Assembly: GCA_029263395.1 (NCBI GenBank)
Contig: JAJCXO010000221.1
Location: 124,001 to 188,000 of the forward strand
Length of the DNA: 64,000 bases
Direction: 5' to 3'
From: Acidobacteriota bacterium
GTDB taxonomy: Bacteria; Acidobacteriota; Thermoanaerobaculia; Multivoradales; J023
In this document: positions 4,245 to 16,620 of the stretch, in pieces
Position numbering within the stretch: position 1 is the stretch's first letter
How the letters are laid out: every line of letters starts with the position of its first letter
Made by a program: the position numbers and the translations under genes
The notes under the pieces: generated by a model
Databases searched by the model: none
Told to the model about the DNA's origin: nothing
The model's input: only the letters and a program-made list of their open reading frames with translations

Positions 4245-4663
4245 GGGGCCATTTTTGCGGTTTCAGTCGAGGTTGCAAAGTCCCAGAGAAATTCCCAGCG
4301 TGACGCCAGACATCGAATGATCTGTAGCCATTGTGCGTCCAACTCGATCGAGGTGTCGAATGACTGTGGACAAGGCAAGTTTCGATACGGTGCGAGGAAT
4401 TCTTGGCAGCTGACACGCCTTGTGCTTCATGCTCTACCCTGCGCTGTCGGAGGGCTCCTACCGAGTTGTTAGCTAAGTCGGAAGGCTCCTACGCGCCCGC
4501 GGCTGGAGGCACCTGTTTTCTGCTTATAGGAGATGCATGCTTCCTTGGCAGAGGAATGATTCATAAAAAGTCCTAAGCGTCTGCCGTATCGTTATCTTGT
4601 TGTAACACTTTGTGTGCTAAGTTTTGCGACCCCGCCGAAAACCAACAACGGAGCGAGCCCTCG
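4245..4663. promoter_or_regulatory. Divergent control region upstream of the gas-vesicle operon
   Basis: A 419-bp gap between the minus-strand nucleotidyltransferase and the plus-strand PYP-like gene. It must hold the operon promoter. I see a 15-bp direct repeat TCGGAGGGCTCCTAC (4447-4461) and TCGGAAGGCTCCTAC (4479-4493), 32 bp apart, each with a short dyad (GGAG/CTCC). The 3' part is AT-richer (about 4555-4620), but I could not settle on a convincing -35/-10 pair. Confidence 0.45.
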
Positions 4664-5644
4664 ATGAGTGAGCAATTAGTCGGATTGAGTAGTCAAGAGA
4701 TCGATCAGCTTCCTTTCGGATATATCGCCCTCGATTCGGCGGGCAACGTTCTAAAATACAATCGATACGAAGCTGAATTAGCTCGCTTGGAGCAGGAAAG
4801 TGTCCTCGGTAAAAACTTCTTCACCGAGGTGGCGCCGTGTACTCAGGTCAAGGAGTTCGAAGGCCGTTTCAAGGAATTGGCGGAAGGGCGTGCCGACACG
4901 TCGACGTTGTCGTTTGATTTCGTTTTCAAGTTCCGACACGGTGCGCAGAACGTCCGGATCGGCTTCATACGCTCGCCGCTGAACGATGAAATCATCGTGA
5001 CGGTGAATCGTCTGCGCATGGAGCAGATGGCGCTGTCGACCGCAATGGAATTCGAAGATACCACCGGCGAAGTGCGAGATTCGGCAGGTAATCGGATTGT
5101 CTTCAGTGGCAAGGATCTGTGGCGCAGTCTGGCGACTGCGTTGCCCGCAGCCACCGGCGAACAGATGGCCAAGATTTTGTTTCGGGTCGGCTTGCAGTGG
5201 GGTCTGCAGCATGCCCAGCGGGCTGACAATCTGGTGCAGCGCGAGCAGACGTCAACGCTAAGAGATACTGGCTTACAAGCCGCTATCGGTCTGCTGTCCC
5301 AGTCGATCGGAGTGTTGGGTTTGGGGTCCTTCGAGGCCGACTTCTCCCATCGGGACGCCGGTTTGATTGTGATTCGCCACGGCAGTAGCCCATTTATCGA
5401 GTTTTTCCCAGAGTACGAAAAAAGCTCGTGCGGCTTGCTGGCCGGAGTCCATGCCGGTCTCTTCACTCACCTGTCGAACCAAAACTTGACCTGCCGCGAG
5501 GCCTCGTGCAGCCAACGCAGCGAGGATCAGTGTGTCTTCATTATCGGCACCGAGAAGCGCCTCGATCGTCTGTTCGAAGATCCGGCGGATGCCAACTTGC
5601 TGCAAGAGATCGCAAACTTAGGCTTGGCGGCTGAGCAGGGGTGA
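4664..5644 (+). CDS. PYP-like PAS photosensor domain fused to a V4R domain
   Basis: A 326-residue protein starting at the ATG after GGAGCGAG; an upstream in-frame ATG at 4610 lacks a good ribosome site. Residues about 12-110 match photoactive yellow protein closely, including GKNFFTEVAPCT. With PYP numbering the chromophore Cys69 is C59 here, Tyr42 is Y32 and Glu46 is E36, at identical spacing (27 residues from Tyr to Cys); Thr50 and Arg52 are not kept (A40, L42). Residues about 150-310 form a V4R (vinyl-4-reductase/DmpR-type) small-molecule domain with the cysteine pattern SSCGLL...CREASC...DQC. It opens the gas-vesicle operon, 16 bp before the next gene. A blue-light or ligand sensor is inferred. 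Whether p-coumarate is bound cannot be seen. Confidence 0.8.
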   Translation: MSEQLVGLSSQEIDQLPFGYIALDSAGNVLKYNRYEAELARLEQESVLGKNFFTEVAPCTQVKEFEGRFKELAEGRADTSTLSFDFVFKFRHGAQNVRIGFIRSPLNDEIIVTVNRLRMEQMALSTAMEFEDTTGEVRDSAGNRIVFSGKDLWRSLATALPAATGEQMAKILFRVGLQWGLQHAQRADNLVQREQTSTLRDTGLQAAIGLLSQSIGVLGLGSFEADFSHRDAGLIVIRHGSSPFIEFFPEYEKSSCGLLAGVHAGLFTHLSNQNLTCREASCSQRSEDQCVFIIGTEKRLDRLFEDPADANLLQEIANLGLAAEQG

Positions 5645-5660
5645 GAAAGGGTGAGTCGTT

Positions 5661-6968
5661 GTGCAAGGCAAGACTGTACTGATTGTTCACAGTGAAGAAC
5701 TGCTGGCCAGCCTGCTGGCTCAGAATCTTCAAGATGCAGGATTGCGAGCCTTGCAGGCGCCCAATCTGGCGCAGGCCGCTGCAACTTTCAGGTACTTCGA
5801 GCCAGATTTGGTCTTGGCGGAGTTGCAGCCATTGAGCCGAGCGAGCCCTGACGCCCGAGACCTGTTGATGGGAGGGAGTACAGGAAGGCCAATTCCGGTC
5901 GTTGCTTTGGTCACGGTTGGCGACGATGAAACGGCCCTTGAAGGTCTCGGAGTCAGCGGTGTGGTTCGTGTGCCCTTCAAGAGCGTGGAATTGATTGCGC
6001 TGATTCGTCAACATCTTGAACCGACGCCTGAGCGAGGCTTGTCCGGTGACCTAGGTCGACTGGGTGTGACGGATATTTTGACAATGTTTGACATGGGCAA
6101 GCGCAGTGGTCGAGTCGATCTCGACGATGGGCAGCGGAAGGCCTGGTTGGACTTTCGTTCCGGCGAGGTCGTAGATGGTGGCTTTGGCACCACTTCCTCC
6201 GGGCCTGAAGTCATCGACGAATTGATCGATTGGCAACAGGGAAACTTCGAGGTGGCGTTTGAAACCCCGGCTGATGGAACCCCGGTAGATGGAATTCAGA
6301 CTGAGTCTGGGAGTTCTCCGGATTCGGGGGGCGCTTTCGGCTCGCCTGATGCGACTTCGGTAACTGACCTTACGGCGACCAACGATTTTTCCATCGCTAG
6401 CGATGATCGAGCTTTTCTTAAGCAGCTTCTGGACCAGCCACCAAGACCCTCTAGCCCTTCGGTGGATGTCCCCGCGGCCACGATCGATAGCGGTTCTTCG
6501 CTGGTCAGTCCCCCTTCGGTCGTCGGTGCCCCTGTCGAGAGCAGTCCTAGCGATAGAAGTGAACCCACTGAAGGCGGCCAGGCAGCACATCATGCACTGA
6601 CTCTGCTTAATACAGTGGCGTCATATGCTTCCGGTTTTGCCGAGAAGCAGCTATTACAAAGGCGGCTCGAGGGTGTCCGCCAGCGATTGGTGAAGAGCCA
6701 TGGTGGTCTCAGCGCTTTCGAGGTGTCTCCCGACGCCTCCGTTGGGCTTCGCAGCCATCTGGACCCAATCACGCTGAATAGCCGATCTATTGTCGAAGCC
6801 ACGGCCGAATGGCTGATCGCTTTCTCGCTAGAGATCGATCGGACGTTTCCTGGCAGTATGCCGCGAGCCACGCTCCACATCCTGGTGGAGTCGATCGGTG
6901 ACGGTCCCGAAAATTTTGGCTTCATGAAGGCCCTTGGATTTGGTGGTGGAGATGATCCGTGGAGCTGA
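5661..6968 (+). CDS. Pseudo-receiver/DUF4388 (PatA-like) signalling protein
   Basis: A 435-residue protein starting at GTG. Residues 4-115 have a response-regulator receiver fold (KTVLIVHSEE...PDLVLAELQPL...VVRVPFK), but the acidic pair is H10/S11, the phospho-acceptor Asp is replaced by E54 and the conserved Lys is absent, so it should not be phosphorylated normally. Residues about 122-200 match DUF4388/PatA N-terminal domains (LSGDLGRLGVTDILTMFDMGKRSGRV...AWLDFRSGEVVDG). A low-complexity Ser/Pro linker follows to about 310, then an unrecognised helical C-terminus. It sits 16 bp after the PYP-V4R gene and overlaps the next gene, so it is an operon member and probable signal relay. Confidence 0.75.
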   Translation: MQGKTVLIVHSEELLASLLAQNLQDAGLRALQAPNLAQAAATFRYFEPDLVLAELQPLSRASPDARDLLMGGSTGRPIPVVALVTVGDDETALEGLGVSGVVRVPFKSVELIALIRQHLEPTPERGLSGDLGRLGVTDILTMFDMGKRSGRVDLDDGQRKAWLDFRSGEVVDGGFGTTSSGPEVIDELIDWQQGNFEVAFETPADGTPVDGIQTESGSSPDSGGAFGSPDATSVTDLTATNDFSIASDDRAFLKQLLDQPPRPSSPSVDVPAATIDSGSSLVSPPSVVGAPVESSPSDRSEPTEGGQAAHHALTLLNTVASYASGFAEKQLLQRRLEGVRQRLVKSHGGLSAFEVSPDASVGLRSHLDPITLNSRSIVEATAEWLIAFSLEIDRTFPGSMPRATLHILVESIGDGPENFGFMKALGFGGGDDPWS

Positions 6969-7531
6969 ACCCAGGCTGCAGAAGCCCACGCAGCAGCCTG
7001 GGGCCCCGGGATATCTGGTCGATCCTTCAAGAGCTCGGCACCGGTCTCGAGTCTGCGGAAGCCAGCAAGCTGCACCGTCGGCTGGGTCATCTGTGGGGGC
7101 AGAGAGCGCTTGTGGCCTTGGCTGAGCTTTTTGGCCGGGAATTTGGTCAGACGATCGCCGAGGCCCGCCTGGTATCGGTCGTCGAGGCCTTGGGAGATCT
7201 GTGCGAGCAAGCTGATTTGGGGCGCGTGGCTCTAGATTTCGAGGATGCTGACAAGGGCCTGGTCCATATCTGGCAGTACTCGTGTCCATTGGCAGAGTCA
7301 GGCAACCTGGGGAAGTTCGCGGCAGGTTTTCTGGAGAGTTTTCATGCCACCGTCCTGGGGCGACTCGCTGGCCATCGACTCGGCGTCAAATGGCTTGCGA
7401 CCGATCCTCGCAATCGAGTACTGCGGTTTCTCATGGGTGCCCAGTCGCGGTTGGCGCTGTGGGATTGGACCCTGGTCGGTGAAGACGGATTAGCGCATTC
7501 GATGACCCTTGCCGCAAGGGAGACAGTGTGA
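6959..7531 (+). CDS. Second V4R-like protein of the gas-vesicle operon
   Basis: A 190-residue protein. The GTG start overlaps the previous gene by 10 bp and has GGTGGTGGAG upstream. The segment RLGHLWGQRALVALAELFG and the C-terminal helix-strand layout (FAAGFLESFHATVLGRLAGHR then RLALWDW) resemble V4R domains, but the clustered cysteines of the first V4R protein are missing. It may bind a ligand or dimerise with the V4R part of the PYP-like sensor. The V4R call rests on pattern resemblance and needs a profile search; an unknown operon-specific family is the alternative. Confidence 0.5.
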   Translation: MELNPGCRSPRSSLGPRDIWSILQELGTGLESAEASKLHRRLGHLWGQRALVALAELFGREFGQTIAEARLVSVVEALGDLCEQADLGRVALDFEDADKGLVHIWQYSCPLAESGNLGKFAAGFLESFHATVLGRLAGHRLGVKWLATDPRNRVLRFLMGAQSRLALWDWTLVGEDGLAHSMTLAARETV

Positions 7532-8295
7532 CCAGGATTATTGCCGTAACCAATCAAAAGGGTGGTGTTGGAAAGACCACCACGGCCCTCAACCTGGGGG
7601 CTGCGTTGGCGCTCGAAGGCAGCCCAACCTGGATGATCGATTTGGATCCACAAGCCTCGATGACCGCGTCTCTTGGCCTAGATCCTTACAACCTCGAATT
7701 GGATGTGAGGTCTGTCCTCGATTCTTCTGACGTCCCGATGCACGAAGCAACGGTGCGTGTCGAGCGCAATTTATACCTGCTTCCGGGCAGCGTTAGCCTT
7801 CCGGGTGGCCCTCTGGCCTCTGACGAACCGATGGATATCGATACCGGTCGGCTAAAGCATTTGCTGTATCGCTATCGGCTGCCATTCGAGTTCGTATTGA
7901 TCGATACGCCGCCAACCCTTGGCCAGCTGACGCTCAATGCATTAATGGCAGCAGGAGAGATTTTGGTTCCTGTGCAATGCCAATACTTGGCCATGCACGG
8001 AGTCCGCGCGTTGTTCGAGAAGGTGCGGCGATTGCGCGAGGGAGCCAATCCCAACCTGGCCTTGACCGGAATTATCGCAACCATGTTCGAACCTGGTTCG
8101 CGTCTCGATGAAGAAGTGGTTGCGGAACTCAAAGCCACTCTTGGCGCGGAGCGAGTGCGGGCCGTGATCGAGCGTGATCCGGCGGTGGCCGCGGCACCTG
8201 TTGCCGGCCGGCCCTTGGTGCATCTCTATCCCAACAGCTCAGCAGCCCAAGCCTACAGATCCCTAGCGAAGGAGCTTCGAAATGAGCGATTCTGA
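7528..8295 (+). CDS. parA: ParA/MinD-family positioning ATPase
   Basis: A 255-residue ParA-type ATPase with the deviant Walker A motif QKGGVGKTTTALNLG at residues 9-23, the A' motif MIDLDPQAS at about 37-45 and Walker B FVLIDTPPTLG. It overlaps the preceding gene by 4 bp (GTGA) and the following small gene by 14 bp, in the middle of a gas-vesicle operon and far from any parB or parS. Related ATPases distribute plasmids, chemoreceptor clusters and carboxysomes over the nucleoid, and ParA homologues occur in some other gas-vesicle clusters. I infer that it spaces or segregates gas vesicles. Confidence 0.9.
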   Translation: MTRIIAVTNQKGGVGKTTTALNLGAALALEGSPTWMIDLDPQASMTASLGLDPYNLELDVRSVLDSSDVPMHEATVRVERNLYLLPGSVSLPGGPLASDEPMDIDTGRLKHLLYRYRLPFEFVLIDTPPTLGQLTLNALMAAGEILVPVQCQYLAMHGVRALFEKVRRLREGANPNLALTGIIATMFEPGSRLDEEVVAELKATLGAERVRAVIERDPAVAAAPVAGRPLVHLYPNSSAAQAYRSLAKELRNERF

Positions 8296-8539
8296 ACCGA
8301 TTTCGATCCGCGGCCGTGGTCGCACCACCTTGCTTCCAGAAGGCGGCTTGCCGTTCGGAGATATGCCGCAAGCTCGGCCTGCCGCGACCCCTGAAGCTTT
8401 TCTGAGATTGTCGGTGACCGAAGCGTTCGCCGCCATCGACTGGGAGGGGCAAGCGGCCAAAAAGCAAGCGCAGCTGGATCTCAGCAAGCTGACGGTTGAA
8501 GAGTTCTTCGAACGGTTTCGTTGGGACCCGATGGCATGA
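8282..8539 (+). CDS. Small candidate ParA partner (cargo adaptor)
   Basis: An 85-residue protein overlapping parA by 14 bp at its start and gvpH by 4 bp at its end. The N-terminus contains a basic stretch (SIRGRGRTT), the kind of positively charged tail with which ParB, MipZ and McdB-type partners stimulate their ParA ATPase. The C-terminus is helical and ends in FFERFRWDPMA. No family is recognised. Position directly behind a lone parA is the main reason for proposing it as the adaptor between ParA and gas vesicles; that role is inference. Confidence 0.65.
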   Translation: MSDSEPISIRGRGRTTLLPEGGLPFGDMPQARPAATPEAFLRLSVTEAFAAIDWEGQAAKKQAQLDLSKLTVEEFFERFRWDPMA

Positions 8540-9270
8540 GCCGACGGTCGCCTGGCGACAAGACCCAAGGGCAGAGCACCCCGCCGTTGGATTCGGAGAG
8601 TGTGCAAGGCGCCGTCGATGGGATCTTCGGAGGCCTCGGCAAGTTGTCAGCCCGGCTCGGTGAAGTTGCGGAGTTGGCGGGAACTGCCATCGAAGAAGCA
8701 AAACGTCGCCAGGAAGCAGGGGAGACCAGCAATCAGTCGGGCGTCGTCTACGATGTTTCCGTCCGTATGGGTTTAGGGGATCCTCTGGATCGTCCACAAT
8801 CGCCTGCTGCATCCCGCGGGCCAGATGTCTCCAAACACCAGGTCTCCAAACACCAAGTATCTAGACACGGGGCCACCAAGAATCGTGCCTCCAGCAACCG
8901 CGACCCCAAGGTGAGCAGCGGAGTCAGCACGTCGCCCCCGCCAGCTGTGAGTTCGACCGACCCGTCGTCCGCCCGTGAGCCCTATTCGGAGGTGACAGTC
9001 GACGGCGAGAAGTCGATCATCATTCTCGACATGCCTGGGGTCAAGGCGTCGGACGTCGAGGTTCGGCAATCCCCGAATCGCTTAGAGGTCGAGGCCCAAG
9101 GTTCTGGCCGGAACTGGTTCAAGCGGCTGGACGTGCCCGGTTTGTCGGCCGAGGACACCGTCTATGTGACAGCGACAAACGGCCTCGTTCGCTTAGAGAC
9201 CTGCCCGTCCTCTTCGGCGCTGGTGTCGTCGATCTCGAAGAAGGACAGCGAGTCCGGCAGCGGTTCCTGA
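8536..9270 (+). CDS. gvpH: Gas vesicle protein GvpH (Hsp20-like)
   Basis: A 244-residue protein starting at the ATG that overlaps the previous stop (ATGA). The N-terminus (VQGAVDGIFGGLGKLSARLGEVAELAG) matches GvpH proteins. The C-terminal third is an alpha-crystallin/Hsp20-like domain (EVTVDGEKSIIILDMPGVKASDVEV). A variable linker between them carries a short repeat (VSKHQVSKHQVSRH). GvpH acts as a small chaperone or modulator in gas-vesicle formation in haloarchaea. It precedes the AAA ATPase by only 1 bp, so the two are likely produced together. Confidence 0.8.
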   Translation: MSRRSPGDKTQGQSTPPLDSESVQGAVDGIFGGLGKLSARLGEVAELAGTAIEEAKRRQEAGETSNQSGVVYDVSVRMGLGDPLDRPQSPAASRGPDVSKHQVSKHQVSRHGATKNRASSNRDPKVSSGVSTSPPPAVSSTDPSSAREPYSEVTVDGEKSIIILDMPGVKASDVEVRQSPNRLEVEAQGSGRNWFKRLDVPGLSAEDTVYVTATNGLVRLETCPSSSALVSSISKKDSESGSGS

Positions 9271-9271
9271 G

Positions 9272-11371
9272 ATGGTCGACTCCAGCTACTTGGTTGTCGC
9301 GGAGTCTGACTCCGGATCGCCAACACTTCAGACCGCCGCTCGCTTCCACCGTGAAGATCTGGCGAAGTTAGGGCTCGAAATGGGCGACGCGGTCGAGATC
9401 TCGTCGAAACAGTGGCAGGTCGTAGCGCGTGTTTTTCCCGCGCTAGCTTCCTCAGGCCCGGGAGCTATCGCACTGAGTCGTCCGTTGATCGAGCGCCTTG
9501 GTGTCGATGTCGGTGGTCATGTCGCAATCCGCCCGACGGAGCTCCAGGCCGCTAGTCGAGTGCGGGTCAGGGCGAGCTGGGAGGAAGGTTCTCAGCTGCA
9601 CACCTGGCGCCCAACGCTCGATGGCGTGGTCGCGACTTCCGGAGATCGTTGGACGATCGGTGAAGAGCAGGTCCTGGAGGTCCTGGAGGTGAGGCCGCGC
9701 GGCTGGGTCATGGTGGATCCCGCAACCGAGGTCGTGTTGGCAGACGAGGCCAGCTCCGGCACCGGGCGGGGAGCCGCCACGCGAGGCTTCGAAGATATCG
9801 GTGGTCTGGACGCTCAGTTGGCGCAGATTCGCGAGTTGGTCGAGGTGCCGTTGCGACACCCGGAAGTGTTTCGCTGGCTAGGGACGGAGCCGCCGAAGGG
9901 AGTACTGCTGCATGGCCCCCCAGGGTGTGGCAAAACGCTGATTGCTCGGACGCTGGCTCGCGAAAGTGAGGCAAGCTTCTTCCATGTCGCCGGGCCCGAA
10001 ATTGTGCACAAGTTCTATGGCGAAAGTGAGGCCGCCCTGCGTGGGATCTTCGAGCAGGCTGAACGCGAGCAGCCAAGTTTGATTTTTCTCGACGAAATCG
10101 ACGCCATTGCTCCGCGACGCGACAAGGTCCAAGGTGATGTCGAACGGCGTATTGTTGCGCAGTTGCTGACGCTGCTGGACGGGCTCGAGGAGCGGCAAGG
10201 GGTGATGGTGCTGGCAGCGACTAATTTGCCCGATATGCTCGATCCAGCGTTGAGACGTCCCGGGCGTCTAGATCGTGAGATTGTGATCCCGGTGCCAGAC
10301 CTGCATGGTCGGCGCCAGATCCTGGCGGTACATAGTCGCGACATGCCATTGGCTTCGGGCGTTGACCTGGACGGTTTGGCCGACCGAACCCACGGCTTTG
10401 TCGGCGCCGATCTTCAGGCTTTGTGCCGTGAAGCTGCGATGTCTCGCCTGCGCCGTCACCGAGCCTCGGGTCAAGCCCTTTCCGAGGCCCAGTGGCAGAC
10501 GCTGGAAGTTGATCTCGAGGACTTCGAGCAAGCGTTACTCGATGTTCGGCCCTCGGCCCTGCGCGAGCTTTTTGTCGAGATCCCGCAAGTCCGTATGGAT
10601 CAGGTTGGTGGTCTCGATGCAGTGAAAGAGGTTTTGCGGCAAGCGATCGACTGGCCCCTTGAGCATCCTGAGTTGTTGCGGCGGGCCGGCCTGCGATCGG
10701 CCCGGGGAGTGCTGCTGGCCGGGCCGCCAGGAGTGGGAAAGACACTGCTTGCGAAGGCCCTGGCCACCGAGTCTGGCGTCAGTTTCCTGTCGATTCAGGG
10801 TGCGCAACTCTTATCGCGTTATGTCGGCGATTCCGAGGCCGCGGTGCGGGAGGTGTTCGCAGTCGCCAGGCGGGCATCGCCAACCATTCTCTTCTTCGAC
10901 GAGATCGATGCGCTGGTGTCGAAGCGGTCAACCGAGTCGGCTGGTGACGGCGGTGTTGCCGTGCGAGTGCTAACCCAATTCTTGATCGAGCTGGATGGGA
11001 TCGACGAACTCAGGGGTGTGGTAGTTCTGGCGGCGACCAACCGTCTCGATCGTCTCGATCCCGCAATCTTGAGACCCGGAAGATTCGATCAGATTGTCGA
11101 GTTGCCGCTCCCCGGGCACCAGGCGAGGCAGAAGATTTTTGATGTCCACTTGCGGGACAGGCCGTTAGCCTTCGAGCCCGACTTGGCCACTTTGGCGTCA
11201 CACGCCGACGGCCTGTCTGGAGCGGATATTGCCGAGCTGTGTCGTCTTGCTGCATTGCGCGCCGTCGGGCGCGCCGTCGCTGAGGGCTCTGATCAGCCGA
11301 TGATCTTGTCTGAAGATCTGGAAACCGTGCTGGCTGACCGGACGTTGCTGGATCAAGGAGGTGCCTCATGA
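9272..11371 (+). CDS. CDC48/VAT-type AAA ATPase with two ATPase domains
   Basis: A 699-residue protein: an N-terminal beta-barrel-like substrate domain (about residues 1-160) and two AAA modules. The first has Walker A GPPGCGKT (about 214) and Walker B LIFLDEIDA (about 270); the second has GPPGVGKT (about 483) and ILFFDEIDAL (about 540). Each is followed by an arginine-finger segment (RRPGRLDR, LRPGRFDQ). Cdc48-family proteins unfold or remodel complexes. Located between GvpH and GvpF/L, it overlaps the next gene by 4 bp, so it probably acts on gas-vesicle proteins. It is distinct from GvpN, which is also present. Confidence 0.85.
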   Translation: MVDSSYLVVAESDSGSPTLQTAARFHREDLAKLGLEMGDAVEISSKQWQVVARVFPALASSGPGAIALSRPLIERLGVDVGGHVAIRPTELQAASRVRVRASWEEGSQLHTWRPTLDGVVATSGDRWTIGEEQVLEVLEVRPRGWVMVDPATEVVLADEASSGTGRGAATRGFEDIGGLDAQLAQIRELVEVPLRHPEVFRWLGTEPPKGVLLHGPPGCGKTLIARTLARESEASFFHVAGPEIVHKFYGESEAALRGIFEQAEREQPSLIFLDEIDAIAPRRDKVQGDVERRIVAQLLTLLDGLEERQGVMVLAATNLPDMLDPALRRPGRLDREIVIPVPDLHGRRQILAVHSRDMPLASGVDLDGLADRTHGFVGADLQALCREAAMSRLRRHRASGQALSEAQWQTLEVDLEDFEQALLDVRPSALRELFVEIPQVRMDQVGGLDAVKEVLRQAIDWPLEHPELLRRAGLRSARGVLLAGPPGVGKTLLAKALATESGVSFLSIQGAQLLSRYVGDSEAAVREVFAVARRASPTILFFDEIDALVSKRSTESAGDGGVAVRVLTQFLIELDGIDELRGVVVLAATNRLDRLDPAILRPGRFDQIVELPLPGHQARQKIFDVHLRDRPLAFEPDLATLASHADGLSGADIAELCRLAALRAVGRAVAEGSDQPMILSEDLETVLADRTLLDQGGAS

Positions 11372-12168
11372 CGGAGACCTCGAAGTTGAACGACCCGGCG
11401 ATCAGCGTGTTCTGCTTCGCTCCGGCAGCAGAGCTCGAGCAGCGAATGGACAAACTGCAGCTCGCAGCCGCCGAGATCGAGACCGTCGAAGGTGTCGGAG
11501 TCGTGTTCCAGTGGGTTGATGCCGCAGACTACACCGGGGATCGAGGCACGAAGCAGCTGGCGGACCTCGAATGGTTGGTGCCACGAGCCGAGCTCCATCA
11601 GGAGACGGTTGCCAAGGTGAGTTCAACGTCGACGATCCTGCCGGTCAGGTTCGGCACCCTGTTTTCGGATTGGTCAAAAGTAGGTGCCTGGATAAACCCT
11701 CGTCGCCCCGAGATCATCGAAGCTTTCGAACGGCTCGAGGGGCGCGAGGAGTGGGGCGTCCGACTGCTCGAGACGCCGCACAACCAGCGGGTTGTGTCCC
11801 CCGAGACTAGTTCTGGCAGCTCCTATCTGATGGCTCGGAAGAAAGTACGGGACGAAGAGGCTTCCCGGCTCGAAACCCTGGGAGTAACAGTCCAGGATTT
11901 TGGCGTCGAACTCGCATCTATCTGTGCGGGTCTGACGAAACTCCCGGTACGCAGTTATGACCGGCCACTAAGGCAAGCGGAAGGCGACACCAGAGTCACG
12001 ATCGCCAACTGGGCAACCTTGATCGAGCGATCAGGGCGCGACGCGTTTCGGCATCAGTTGCAGGCGCTGGCGGCAGCCAAGCTTGGCCACCATGCCGAAG
12101 CAGAGCTGTCGGGACCCTGGCCACCCTACAATTTTTGTCCGTCCTTCAAGTGCCCATCGATTCAATAG
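11368..12168 (+). CDS. Gas vesicle protein GvpF/GvpL family (copy 1)
   Basis: A 266-residue member of the GvpL/GvpF family. Visible signatures are [10 protein letters not shown], the conserved central motif, and the closing SGPWPPYNF that mirrors the family's GPWPPYSF. GvpF and GvpL interact with GvpA and act in early assembly. The ATG overlaps the AAA gene stop by 4 bp. A second copy lies at 14578-15321; the two are divergent, as expected for distinct F and L roles, but I cannot say which is which. Confidence 0.9.
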
Positions 12169-12322: not shown

Positions 12323-12547
12323 ATGGCGCAAGTGAACAAAGCCACGGACTCATCGAGTCTGGCCGAGGTTGTCGATCGGATTCTCGACAAGGGTGTCGTT
12401 ATCGATATCTGGGCCAAGGTTTCGCTCGTTGGCATCGAGCTGATTGCTATCGAGGCGCGGATCGTGATCGCGTCGGTCGAGACCTACCTGAAGTATGCAG
12501 AGGCTATCGGTCTAACAGCCCCAGCGGCTGCGCCGGTCGCCGCCTAG
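12323..12547 (+). CDS. gvpA: Gas vesicle major structural protein GvpA
   Basis: A 74-residue GvpA, the hydrophobic protein that forms the ribs of the gas-vesicle wall. It shows the family core [21 protein letters not shown] then [33 protein letters not shown], with an Ala/Pro-rich end. The ATG follows the Shine-Dalgarno AAGGAGATAT, the best in the operon, as expected for the most abundant product. It is followed by a hairpin at 12558-12593 that could lower transcription into later genes. Confidence 0.97.
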
Positions 12548-12680: not shown

Positions 12681-13316
12681 ATGGGAAGTTTGACTCGAGA
12701 TATTGGGCGGTTGGCTGAGGACATTCGCCGTGGTCGTGAGCAGCGCCAGCAGGGTGCCCGTCATCTGCGCGCCGATGAGGCGGCCCGCAAACAGTCCGCG
12801 TTCGAAGCTGCGCAGCAGCGGACGGTGGTGGTCGAAAGGCGTCGCAACGAAGTTCGCAGCAGTCTTGAGAGCAGTCGCGCCAAGTTGGAAACCGAAACTT
12901 CCCAACTGCGGGATAACCTGCGTTCGTTTGCCGATGGCTTGAAGAGTGAGGTCTCGGCGTTTCGGACCGAAGTACAGCAAGACTTACAAGGAGCTCGGGC
13001 TGCTTGGCATGGATCGACGGGCGCCACCGTGGTTCGAGATGGTGCATCGAAGTCGGCGAAGTCGGCGAAGTCGGCAACGGATGCGTCAGACGCCGCCGGG
13101 GATAAAAACACGGCTGCAGACGACTTGACCTCGATCTCCGGAATTGGACCCGGTATTCAAGAGCGGTTGAACAATGCGGGCATTTTGAGCTTTGTGCAGT
13201 TGGCGACGAAACCGGTCGACGAAATCCGAGACGTGCTTGGAGAGCTCAATCGGCTGGCCCACGTCGAGGATTGGGTTCTCGAGGCCAAAAGTAGAGTCAG
13301 TGGAAGCAAAACGTGA
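12681..13316 (+). CDS. GvpC-like coiled-coil protein with C-terminal helix-hairpin-helix domain
   Basis: A 211-residue protein. Residues about 1-115 are charged, helical and coiled-coil-like (VVERRRNEVRSSLESSRAKL, LRSFADGLKSEVSAFRTEV, DLQGARAAW), reminiscent of the helical repeats of GvpC that brace the outside of the vesicle. A Ser/Ala/Lys linker with repeated AKSAKSA follows. Residues about 150-205 look like a helix-hairpin-helix domain (ISGIGPGIQERLNNAGILSF...LATKPVDEI), normally a DNA- or protein-binding module of the topoisomerase/radical-SAM-associated type. It stands between gvpA and gvpN, the classical gvpC position, and overlaps gvpN by 4 bp. The GvpC identity is inference. Confidence 0.6.
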   Translation: MGSLTRDIGRLAEDIRRGREQRQQGARHLRADEAARKQSAFEAAQQRTVVVERRRNEVRSSLESSRAKLETETSQLRDNLRSFADGLKSEVSAFRTEVQQDLQGARAAWHGSTGATVVRDGASKSAKSAKSATDASDAAGDKNTAADDLTSISGIGPGIQERLNNAGILSFVQLATKPVDEIRDVLGELNRLAHVEDWVLEAKSRVSGSKT

Positions 13317-14281
13317 GCACGACGCAGACACATCAGCGGTCTCAGTCGGTCGCCCAGACCCGAGAGCAAAGTTCTCATATCACTGCCCTGCCCAGTGACT
13401 CGTTTGTCGTAACCGACGAGATCGATCAAATTTGTGAGCGAGCACTCTCTTATTTGGAAATTGGCTATCCGGTGCATCTGGCCGGTTATGCCGGTACCGG
13501 TAAGACGACACTGGCGCTTCATCTGGCCGCTTTACTCGGTCGCCCGGTGATGCTGATTCATGGCGACGATGCCTATTCCAGTGCCGATCTTGTGGGTCGG
13601 GATTCGGGATACCGCAAAAGCACTCTGGTCGATAATTACGTCCATTCGGTGTTGAAAACGGAAGAAGAAGCCCGCGTCTTCTGGGCCGAGAATCGGCTGA
13701 CTACGGCGTGCCGTCAGGGATATACCTTGATTTACGACGAGTTCACCCGGTCGCGTCCCGAAGCCAACAATGCGCTGTTGGCTGTCCTCTCAGAAGGGTT
13801 GTTGCCGCTACCGCCGGTGGCTGGCAACGACCAAGGGTATTTGCGAGTCCACCCGGAATTTCGTGCCATCTTCACTTCGAACCCTGCCGAGTACACCGCG
13901 ACCCACAAGACGCAGGATGCGTTGCGTGATCGTTTGGTGACTCTGCAGCTATCCGAGTTGGAGCGCGAGACTCAGATCGCCATTACCCGGCGCCGAGGGG
14001 AAATCAGTGAAGACGCCGCCGAGCTCATTGTGGATATCGTCGGTGCTCTCTACCATGAGCTATCGCCGGATCGTCCAATCTCTCTTCGTGGTGCGATTGG
14101 TATCGCGAGACTCATGAGCCATCGGCAGGAAGCTGTTTCTCGAGATAGCAAGTGGCTGCGCTGGGCGTGTTGCGACATTCTTGGGACCAGTCTGCAAGGT
14201 GAGCTGTCAACCCGGCAGCTCGGTCAACAAGTGGACGCCGTAATCGATCGGCTGCTCGACGCCAGATCCGAGAGGAGTTGA
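13313..14281 (+). CDS. gvpN: Gas vesicle protein GvpN (AAA ATPase, MoxR-like)
   Basis: A 322-residue GvpN. It has Walker A GYAGTGKTTLALH (about residues 58-68), the GvpN-typical GDDAYSSADLVGRDSGYRK, and Walker B YTLIYDEFTRSRPEANNALLAVLSEG. GvpN binds and hydrolyses ATP and is needed for vesicles to grow to full width and length. The GTG start overlaps the previous stop (GTGA). Length and order agree with the family. Confidence 0.95.
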   Translation: MSTTQTHQRSQSVAQTREQSSHITALPSDSFVVTDEIDQICERALSYLEIGYPVHLAGYAGTGKTTLALHLAALLGRPVMLIHGDDAYSSADLVGRDSGYRKSTLVDNYVHSVLKTEEEARVFWAENRLTTACRQGYTLIYDEFTRSRPEANNALLAVLSEGLLPLPPVAGNDQGYLRVHPEFRAIFTSNPAEYTATHKTQDALRDRLVTLQLSELERETQIAITRRRGEISEDAAELIVDIVGALYHELSPDRPISLRGAIGIARLMSHRQEAVSRDSKWLRWACCDILGTSLQGELSTRQLGQQVDAVIDRLLDARSERS

Positions 14282-14283
14282 CA

Positions 14284-14568
14284 ATGCGAGCGCGACGCCG
14301 CGGTCTAAACGAGATTCGAACGTTGGGTCATCGAAGCAAGGCGGAAGGTGATCAGAAAGCCCTGCTGCGGGCCTCGGTTGTCGAGGCGGAAATGCAGAGG
14401 TTGCGTCAGGAACGCCGCTTACTCGAGCAGCGCCTGGCTTTGATCGACGACAGGTTGTCCAAATTGGGTGATGAACGGGATCAACTCATTGGAAGCTTGA
14501 ACATTCATCGGTCGGGAGATGTTGCCCGCAGGCCGGGCGATGACCGGACGTTTCACCTCAGATATTGA
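14284..14568 (+). CDS. Small coiled-coil protein of the gas-vesicle operon
   Basis: A 94-residue basic protein starting at ATG after GAGAGGAG, 2 bp past the gvpN stop. The N-terminus is Arg-rich (MRARRRGLNEIRTLGHRSK). The centre is a heptad-like helix (VVEAEMQRLRQERRLLEQRL...DDRLSKLGDERDQL). No family is recognised. GvpG, GvpC and GvpO are unlikely by sequence. Its place between gvpN and the second gvpF/L marks it as a probable assembly factor of unknown role. Confidence 0.7.
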   Translation: MRARRRGLNEIRTLGHRSKAEGDQKALLRASVVEAEMQRLRQERRLLEQRLALIDDRLSKLGDERDQLIGSLNIHRSGDVARRPGDDRTFHLRY

Positions 14569-14577
14569 GTTCTCGAG

Positions 14578-15321
14578 ATGGCGCTTTATTTATATGCATT
14601 TACCCGAGCTTCTGAAGTGGCGGAGCTATGGGGTCTCGACAAAGCTCCGATTCGGCTGATTACCGAAGGTTCGGTGGCGGCCCTGGCCAGCAAATACGAT
14701 CATCCACGGGTCCGGCCCCGGCGCCGACATCTGCTGGCCCACGATCGAGCAATTCGTTCTCTGATGCAAACACAAAGTATCCTGCCGATCAGCTTCGGTA
14801 CGTTGGCCGCGTCTAGGAACGAGGTGATCTCGCTGTTGGAAAGTCACGCTGAGAGCATCTCGGCTAATCTGGATCGCCTGGATGGCCGGGTCGAGATGGT
14901 CGCTCGAACCAAAGTAGCGGCAACCAATCTCTTTGAACGTTATGTTGAGGGTTATCCCATTTTGCGTGAGGCAAGGGATCGTATGCTGGCGGACGGTGCG
15001 AGCAAAGATCGCCACCGGATGCTCGAAATCGGTAAGCTTTTCGAAAGCCTCAGGGAGCGCGAGCGAGGTGATGTTACGGAGCGGTTTCTCGCCGGTCTTG
15101 GATCGTCTTTCGATGACGTGCGAAAGAACGAGCCCAAGCAGGATGAGCAGATATTCGACTTGGCGTTCTTGATCCAACGGGATGCCGTCGCGGCGTGGGA
15201 ATCTGCGGTCGAAAAGGTGGCGGCTGATCTCGACAATGATCTGGTGATCGATCTTGCGGGGCCCTTGCCGCCCTACAGCTTCTCGACTTTGCGCCTGGCG
15301 CTCGAGCCGGCTGTTGGGTAA
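14578..15321 (+). CDS. Gas vesicle protein GvpF/GvpL family (copy 2)
   Basis: A 247-residue member of the GvpL/GvpF family opening with MALYLYAFTRASEV, the family's typical first strand. It contains ILPISFGTLAAS (the conserved PxxFGT motif) and ends GPLPPYSFSTLRL. It starts 9 bp after the coiled-coil gene and is followed within 15 bp by gvpG, the usual partner in bacterial F-G-J-K gene order. Confidence 0.92.
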   Translation: MALYLYAFTRASEVAELWGLDKAPIRLITEGSVAALASKYDHPRVRPRRRHLLAHDRAIRSLMQTQSILPISFGTLAASRNEVISLLESHAESISANLDRLDGRVEMVARTKVAATNLFERYVEGYPILREARDRMLADGASKDRHRMLEIGKLFESLRERERGDVTERFLAGLGSSFDDVRKNEPKQDEQIFDLAFLIQRDAVAAWESAVEKVAADLDNDLVIDLAGPLPPYSFSTLRLALEPAVG

Positions 15322-15335
15322 AGAGATGGCACCCG

Positions 15336-15539
15336 GTGGTTTTCCGTTCTCTTCTATGGTTGGCGCGCGAAGTCGAGAAGGCTGCCCAAGAGGAGCAGGC
15401 GAACGATCGCGAAGCCATCCTGGCCCAGATTCGCCATCACATGGCGCAGCTCGAAGCTGGAGAGATCGACGAAGAGACCTACGAGCGACTCGAAGACGAG
15501 CTTTTGGATCGCCTGGACAGAATCAATGACGACTCCTAG
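15336..15539 (+). CDS. gvpG: Gas vesicle protein GvpG
   Basis: A 67-residue GvpG. The start is GTG, 10 nt after AAAGAGA. The N-terminal SLLWLAREVEKAAQEE matches the family's hydrophobic-then-acidic helix and the C-terminus is acidic (GEIDEETYERLEDELLDRLD). It is a minor accessory protein of vesicle assembly. It overlaps the next gene by 14 bp. Confidence 0.88.
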   Translation: MVFRSLLWLAREVEKAAQEEQANDREAILAQIRHHMAQLEAGEIDEETYERLEDELLDRLDRINDDS

Positions 15540-15759
15540 CAGTTCGACACCCGTTGCGCTGGCTCCCACCTCCAGCCTCTGTGACTTGCTCGATCGGGTT
15601 TTGGATCGAGGGGTGGTGATCGAGGGGGACATCGTCATTTCGGTGGCGGGCGTCGACTTGATCTACTTGCGCCTGGAGGCGCTCTTGTCGTCGGTTGCAA
15701 CCGCGATCGAAGCTGGAGCGTTTCCCAAGTCTGTCGACCCCTTGGAGGCTCGGTCGTGA
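15526..15759 (+). CDS. gvpJ: GvpA-family minor protein (GvpJ type, copy 1)
   Basis: A 77-residue GvpA paralogue: SLCDLLDRVLDRGVVIEGDI followed by VISVAGVDLIYLRLEALLSSVATAIEAG. The Gly-Asp after the first helix and the extended C-terminus separate it from the major GvpA and fit GvpJ/GvpM-type minor proteins thought to form vesicle tips or nuclei. It overlaps gvpG and gvpK. Confidence 0.85.
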   Translation: MTTPSSSTPVALAPTSSLCDLLDRVLDRGVVIEGDIVISVAGVDLIYLRLEALLSSVATAIEAGAFPKSVDPLEARS

Positions 15760-16112
15760 GCGGAGCGGAACGTCAACTCGACGACACCGAAGCGGCATTA
15801 CGATCGGTGATCGGCCGTATCGAGTTGCAGCCGATCAACTCAGCCGAAACGGCTGGCGCTGCCGGTCAAGGCGGTACCCCAGAACGCGGACTCACTCAGC
15901 TGGTATTGACCTTGGTTCGTCTCATTCACGAGCTGCTGGAGCGGCAAGCGATCCACCGTTTGGAAGCTGGCACGTTGAGTGACGACGAGATCGAGAGGGT
16001 CGGTTCGGCACTCCAGGCGCAAGCGCAAGAGCTGGATCGTTTGTGTGAAACTTTGGGGATCGACTTCGAGCAACTCAACCTGGATCTTGGCCCGCTTGGC
16101 CGGCTGCTCTGA
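15756..16112 (+). CDS. gvpK: Gas vesicle protein GvpK
   Basis: A 118-residue GvpK. Characteristic segments are GLTQLVLTLVRLIHELLERQAIHRLEAG, LSDDEIERVGSALQAQAQELDRLCETLGI and the closing LNLDLGPLGRLL. GvpK is essential for gas-vesicle formation in most bacteria, in an early assembly step. The GTG start overlaps the previous stop by 4 bp. Confidence 0.95.
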   Translation: MSGAERQLDDTEAALRSVIGRIELQPINSAETAGAAGQGGTPERGLTQLVLTLVRLIHELLERQAIHRLEAGTLSDDEIERVGSALQAQAQELDRLCETLGIDFEQLNLDLGPLGRLL

Positions 16113-16245: not shown

Positions 16246-16620
16246 ATGACTGGAACCACCCGTTCGTCCCCCACCCACTCTCTGCAGTCGACCAACCTCG
16301 CCGACATCCTCGACCGGGTGCTCGACAAAGGTATTGTGATTGCTGGAGACATCAAGATTCGTATCGTTGACGTCGAGCTGTTGACGTTGCAGATTCGGCT
16401 AGTGATTTGTTCTGTAGATCGTGCGGTAGATATGGGGATCGACTGGTGGCGCCGGGATCCTCACCTGCTCGGAGCGGCTGCCCAAGACAGCCTGCCGGCC
16501 GGTTCCGATCAACTGGCCGAGCTCAAAGCCAAGGTGCAAGAGCTCGAAGCCCGTCTGGAAGCGTCCGATTCAGCAATGGTGCCAGTGCCCGATGCCAACG
16601 CCAATGCAGAGGTGAGCTGA
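16246..16620 (+). CDS. GvpA-family minor protein (GvpJ/S type, copy 2) with coiled-coil tail
   Basis: A 124-residue GvpA paralogue: NLADILDRVLDKGIVIAGDI, then KIRIVDVELLTLQIRLVICSVDRAVDMGIDWW. A tail of about 50 residues containing a short coiled coil (DQLAELKAKVQELEARLEA) follows. This is the last recognisable gas-vesicle gene, 133 bp after gvpK, in a gap with no visible signal. Confidence 0.85.
   Translation: MTGTTRSSPTHSLQSTNLADILDRVLDKGIVIAGDIKIRIVDVELLTLQIRLVICSVDRAVDMGIDWWRRDPHLLGAAAQDSLPAGSDQLAELKAKVQELEARLEASDSAMVPVPDANANAEVS

Follow-up and report, generated by a model that had tools for sequence, protein, structure and literature searches.

A photoactive yellow protein-V4R sensor and a receiver-PATAN protein at the head of an acidobacterial gas-vesicle operon

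We analyzed a stretch of 64,000 nucleotides, hereafter the window, from an Acidobacteriota bacterium of the class Thermoanaerobaculia (GCA_029263395.1, contig JAJCXO010000221.1, positions 124,001 to 188,000), in which a gene for a presumable photoreceptor heads a gas-vesicle operon. PMC12826048 names the downstream partner of photoactive yellow protein (PYP) as a gap in current knowledge. The gene of interest occupies positions 4664–5644 on the plus strand of the window and encodes 326 residues, comprising a PYP domain (residues ~1–117, with Tyr32, Glu36, and Cys59) and an aromatic-sensor/V4R region (residues ~124–310, with Cys256-Glu279-Cys282-Cys290).

The N-terminal domain matches the PYPs in the PDB with E-values of 5e-18 to 1e-16. 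As the earlier note on this DNA had claimed, Tyr32, Glu36, and Cys59, located inside GKNFFTEVAPCT, align exactly with Tyr42, Glu46, and Cys69 of the Halorhodospira (Hhal) PYP. Cys59 lies within VAPCT, the APCT-type motif of the chromophore-bearing Cys69. The window protein retains all nine published chromophore-pocket positions (including Tyr42, Glu46, 31, 62, 66–68, and 96) as well as all 17 family-conserved positions. The profile alignment that the note had proposed gave a match to NCBIfam TIGR02373 with 88.4 bits (E = 3.7e-25), though below the full-length equivalog cut-off of 143 bits, and four other orthologues described below score 94–98 bits. Because all of them miss this cut-off, the protein should not be classed as an equivalog PYP; it carries a PYP domain inside a fusion. 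The same note had pointed to the replacement of Thr50 and Arg52. This is no departure from PYP, since Ala50 and Leu52 of the window protein (PYP numbering) are the consensus among 984 PYPs (PMC12826048), and their presence is no defect. Judged from these alignments, positions 4664–5644 encode a genuine PYP domain.

The claimed fusion with a V4R domain was also confirmed, as PF02830 matches with 35.9 bits, above the cut-off of 31. Residues ~124–310 correspond to an XylR_N-like region followed by V4R, in which the putative zinc ligands Cys256, Glu279, Cys282, and Cys290 have the 23-3-8 spacing of MopR. The predicted model has low confidence but matches PYP and, separately, the MopR/DmpR phenol-sensor structures; the models were computed from two-row alignments (pLDDT 61 and 52) and used for fold matches only. 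The window protein thus resembles the MopR/DmpR aromatic-sensor domain in its fold, its XylR_N-like and V4R composition, and its Cys-Glu-Cys-Cys ligands. Unlike MopR/DmpR, it has neither an AAA nor a DNA-binding domain, and the phenol-anchoring His/Trp pair is not found at the aligned places in the weak MopR alignment (E = 0.7), suggesting that the ligand of the V4R half is probably not phenol.

The PYP-V4R gene is the first of a continuous gas-vesicle operon, in agreement with the earlier note, and all window genes described here lie on the plus strand. Genes 1–8 (4664–12168) are separated by −19 to +16 nucleotides. Gene 2 (5661–6968) encodes a 435-residue protein composed of a pseudo-receiver, a PATAN (DUF4388) domain, and a C-terminal helical domain, in which the phospho-acceptor Asp and the conserved Lys are absent. 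It is followed by a degenerate V4R paralogue that has no PYP domain and has lost the zinc ligands (6959–7531), a ParA/MinD-type ATPase likely involved in vesicle or cluster positioning (7528–8295), an 85-residue protein with AFAAIDWEG and EEFFERFRWDP motifs (gene 5, 8282–8539), and a 249-residue protein lacking a Pfam match (8521–9270), which may be GvpH/Hsp20-like as judged by position and reading only. Genes 7 and 8 encode a CDC48-type AAA ATPase (9272–11371), also present in the Methylosinus/Methylocella gvp clusters, and GvpL/GvpF (11368–12168, Pfam). Farther downstream reside GvpA, the main shell protein of 74 residues (12323–12547, Pfam), GvpN, a MoxR-type AAA protein recognized by its match to annotated gvpN genes (13313–14281), a second GvpL/GvpF (14578–15321, Pfam), a GvpA/J/S-family protein (15526–15759, domain search), GvpK (15756–16112, Pfam), and a GvpA/J-family protein (16246–16620, domain search). 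The cluster includes gvpA, gvpF/L, gvpN, and gvpK. A gap of 151 nucleotides precedes gvpA, which could therefore possess its own promoter; scans of the DNA for promoters and terminators remained at chance level. We also observed a direct repeat, GGCTCCTAC (4453–4492), with copies ~31 nucleotides apart and ~170–210 nucleotides upstream of the PYP-V4R start, which is a possible operator but may be due to chance. The overlap of the ParA ATPase gene with the small gene downstream (7528–8539) is a layout typical of cargo-positioning ParA systems.

Sensory genes within gvp operons are not unusual, given that the plasmid-borne clusters of Methylosinus/Methylocella likewise contain a PAS or histidine-kinase protein and a response regulator among GvpN and CDC48. 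However, those clusters carry kinase/regulator pairs of the classical type plus a sigma-54 regulator, with no PYP or V4R annotated, and it is the PYP that makes the window operon unusual.

We surveyed 149 genomes of the class for related proteins. Full-length PYP-V4R orthologues with 48–51% identity occur in four other genomes, and nine genomes of one family encode a protein of 700–790 residues bearing the same PAS-V4R as its C-terminal end. Sampling 396 genomes from the phylum yielded no additional full-length match outside the class, and the plasmid and viral collections contained no PYP-V4R fusion. At all five short loci, including the window, the PYP-V4R gene adjoins a gene for a receiver-PATAN protein homologous to gene 2 (34.3 bits for DUF4388/PATAN in gene 2, cut-off 25). 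The fused family has receiver-PATAN and PAS-V4R on one chain, as directly read in seven of the nine genomes, and the tree separates the short and fused clades cleanly. The 13 other module genomes (four with orthologues and nine with the fusion) all lack gvpA, which confines the gas-vesicle link to one locus, and other gvp clusters of the class, where examined, contain no sensor-pair genes. From this gene order, the conserved partner of PYP-V4R is the receiver-PATAN protein and not the gas vesicle, and the two sensor genes recur in the class as a signalling module, whose placement in a buoyancy operon is seen in the window genome only. Across the class, PYP and gvpA show a weakly positive association (Fisher, 0.03), which was dropped as support because one family drives it and the genes are unlinked in the genomes.

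The receiver domain of the partner appears degenerated. In all readable sequences, Asp57 is replaced by Glu, Ala, Gln, or Pro, and Lys109 is missing, as read by eye from alignment columns shifted by one or two; one sequence (G091) could not be aligned. The domain does not classify as a phosphorylatable receiver by the rule for PATAN response regulators. The loss of Asp in the readable sequences makes input by phosphorylation unlikely and contact with a partner likely.

Does the PYP domain bind a chromophore? Cys59, on whose conservation the earlier note had made its proposal depend, is present in all five short orthologues; only the fused family of nine genomes has lost it. Within the short clade, eight of the nine pocket positions are identical to the Hhal PYP, compared with 25 of 100 PYP positions overall (hypergeometric, 4e-5). 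The note had also proposed a search for tyrosine ammonia-lyase (TAL) and 4-coumarate-CoA ligase. TAL was not found in the window genome (G000), where the only lyase of this kind is HutH beside urocanate hydratase and a HutC-like regulator. Nor did we find a close relative of the pyp-linked CoA ligase: the best match to the Caballeronia enzyme (44 bits) covers only the C-terminal part and stands among dozens of AMP-binding domains, the search being swamped by NRPS and ligase domains. However, the checked class members with ordinary PYPs likewise possess only HAL-type lyases, except for three genomes with an ACGDL-type lyase, and a simple motif test revealed no obvious ligase gene in the PYP neighborhoods read. 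TAL is present in only 5% of pyp operons. The TAL result is therefore not discriminating and provides no argument against a chromophore; p-coumarate could be taken up or activated by a general ligase. The lyases of the three PYP-bearing genomes (L110, L111, and L112) are aromatic ammonia-lyases with ACGDL instead of ASGDL, which might supply p-coumarate or a different product.

The domain might alternatively be an ordinary PAS domain that binds another ligand or serves dimerization only, with the V4R ligand as the real input. Besides the missing TAL, such a reading could draw on the replacement of Met100 by His and Trp119 by Ile (PYP numbering) in the short clade. It also agrees with the fused family, whose PAS domain has lost the equivalents of Cys69 and Glu46, yet whose V4R zinc ligands are kept in the two members aligned. 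Since the module persists there without the Cys, the module in itself does not depend on light. Yet Cys, Tyr, Glu, and the pocket are retained in five orthologues of ~50% identity, and the ordinary PYPs of the class share the lack of TAL and of an obvious adjoining ligase, so that we regard a chromophore-free sensor as rather doubtful. For the PYP half, p-coumarate binding at Cys59 and a blue-light response seem most likely from the conserved pocket, light binding by the domain is likely, and on balance we lean toward a function in light sensing.

Reading short frames revealed a further component of the module. A protein of 63–77 residues with two Trp motifs (L-D-x3-W-D-Y ... F-x2-F-P-W-E) is encoded directly downstream of PAS-V4R in all 11 other loci read (L039:2780–3010, L040:9925–10133, L041:11077–11280, L042 near 14380–14570 on the minus strand, and after the fused genes at L043–L049), and in most loci its start overlaps the upstream stop by 3–8 nucleotides. 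A profile search matched 12 of the 13 module genomes and, elsewhere in 147 genomes, gave only one weak match; G053, the 13th module genome, was outside the genomes of that search, and the protein was seen at its locus. The member tested has no Pfam match. The profile did not detect the protein in the window genome, where gene 5, the top-ranking window ORF (E = 0.28), carries comparable motifs and is a possible counterpart. With gvpA in none of the 13 genomes and the two-Trp protein accompanying the module, the conserved unit is a three-part signalling module, and the window contains an altered copy of it within a gas-vesicle operon.

Such a free-standing module could have landed upstream of the gvp operon, where it would be co-transcribed accidentally and act on another target. 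The four other genomes with the pair and the nine with the fusion, all devoid of gvpA, are in line with this idea, as are the gvp clusters of the class examined without such genes. However, up to gene 8 the genes are tightly packed and have overlapping starts, and they include those for GvpF and the CDC48 ATPase common to other gvp clusters; moreover, the usual two-Trp partner is undetectable in the window genome, which suggests rewiring. We therefore consider an accidental arrival somewhat unlikely.

The explanation we prefer is that a light-plus-ligand sensor contacts a receiver-PATAN adaptor, recruited here to gas vesicles; taken as a whole, it is about evenly poised between right and wrong. 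PYP-V4R would be a two-input sensor without an output domain of its own, whose V4R half, an aromatic-sensor-type zinc fold, probably binds a small ligand. The lack of an output domain, the phospho-dead receiver-PATAN neighbor, and the natural fusion of the two point to signalling by direct contact, as between PixD and PixE, and we infer a contact between the products of genes 1 and 2 with high confidence. In Synechocystis, PixD (BLUF) and PixE (PATAN-CheY) form a complex in the dark and come apart in the light, and PixE is termed non-phosphorylatable (PMC5812497). Both systems thus combine a putative or known blue-light receptor devoid of an output domain with a non-phosphorylatable PATAN-receiver protein. 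They differ in that PixD has the BLUF and not the PYP fold and no V4R, that the domain order in the window is receiver then PATAN, and that PixD-PixE concerns pili and not gas vesicles.

Located at the head of the operon together with the ParA ATPase, the pair would be co-expressed with the vesicles and would probably tune or position them; co-expression with ParA suggests an effect on vesicle number or position. A role in gas vesicles nevertheless seems to us slightly less probable than its absence. The light- or ligand-controlled buoyancy suggested by the earlier note is possible but has little support, because the four other intact orthologues reside in genomes without gvpA and have a different conserved neighbor, the receiver-PATAN gene; buoyancy control would be deduced from a single locus, that of the window. 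The full reading, in which a PYP with a second, chemical input controls vesicles via a phospho-dead receiver-PATAN protein, giving light-gated buoyancy by a pre-existing module moved before a gvp operon, is unlikely in all its parts together. Action of the pair through the ParA ATPase on vesicle localization or on the whole operon, and not on vesicle assembly itself, is improbable, for although the ParA gene lies two places downstream of the pair and overlaps its neighbors, and cyanobacterial PATAN-receiver proteins have been connected with motility and with the pilus machinery, the domain search found no DNA-binding domain in genes 1–3, and ParA homologues abound in the genome with none found beside the module elsewhere.

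The earlier note had considered the PYP-V4R fusion itself undescribed, but 20 such fusions have been reported (Dohmen et al., 2025; PMC12826048). These also consist of an N-terminal Cys69-type PYP followed by V4R without an output domain, whereas the text names neither an operon partner nor gas vesicles, and the window has a receiver-PATAN partner and a gvp operon. Among 5.4 million open-access papers, three contain both terms, and by title and abstract none of these appears to connect PYP with gas vesicles. New, to the extent searched, are the receiver-PATAN partner, the clade of fusions without the Cys, the two-Trp protein, and the location in a gvp operon. The receiver-PATAN gene, which in the class always adjoins PYP-V4R and in nine genomes is fused to a PAS-V4R relative, offers a concrete candidate for a PYP partner that can be tested, and the fused clade lacking the Cys provides a natural control. 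Should the gvp link prove functional, this would be, per the literature searched, the first case of a dedicated photoreceptor associated with a gas-vesicle operon in a heterotrophic-type bacterium, possibly of use in light-controlled acoustic reporters.

Several minor observations concern related genes. Among loci of sufficient length, the fused genes at L043, L046, and L047 lie in a chemotaxis-type cluster (CheA/CheW/CheB/CheR-like and CheX-like, by reading). One short contig (L051, G005:C164) bears three stand-alone PYP genes, and another locus (L050, G141:C644) has two PYPs near a stand-alone V4R protein. Proteins at L052:7818–8999 and L055:10545–11681 carry a C-terminal PYP behind what looks, on reading alone, like a divergent EAL-like domain. 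On plasmid pREC2 of Acaryochloris marina (L094:5914–9212), two V4R proteins adjoin a 2Fe-2S protein and an allophycocyanin gene, and one of the two matches the V4R half of the window protein with ~24% identity.
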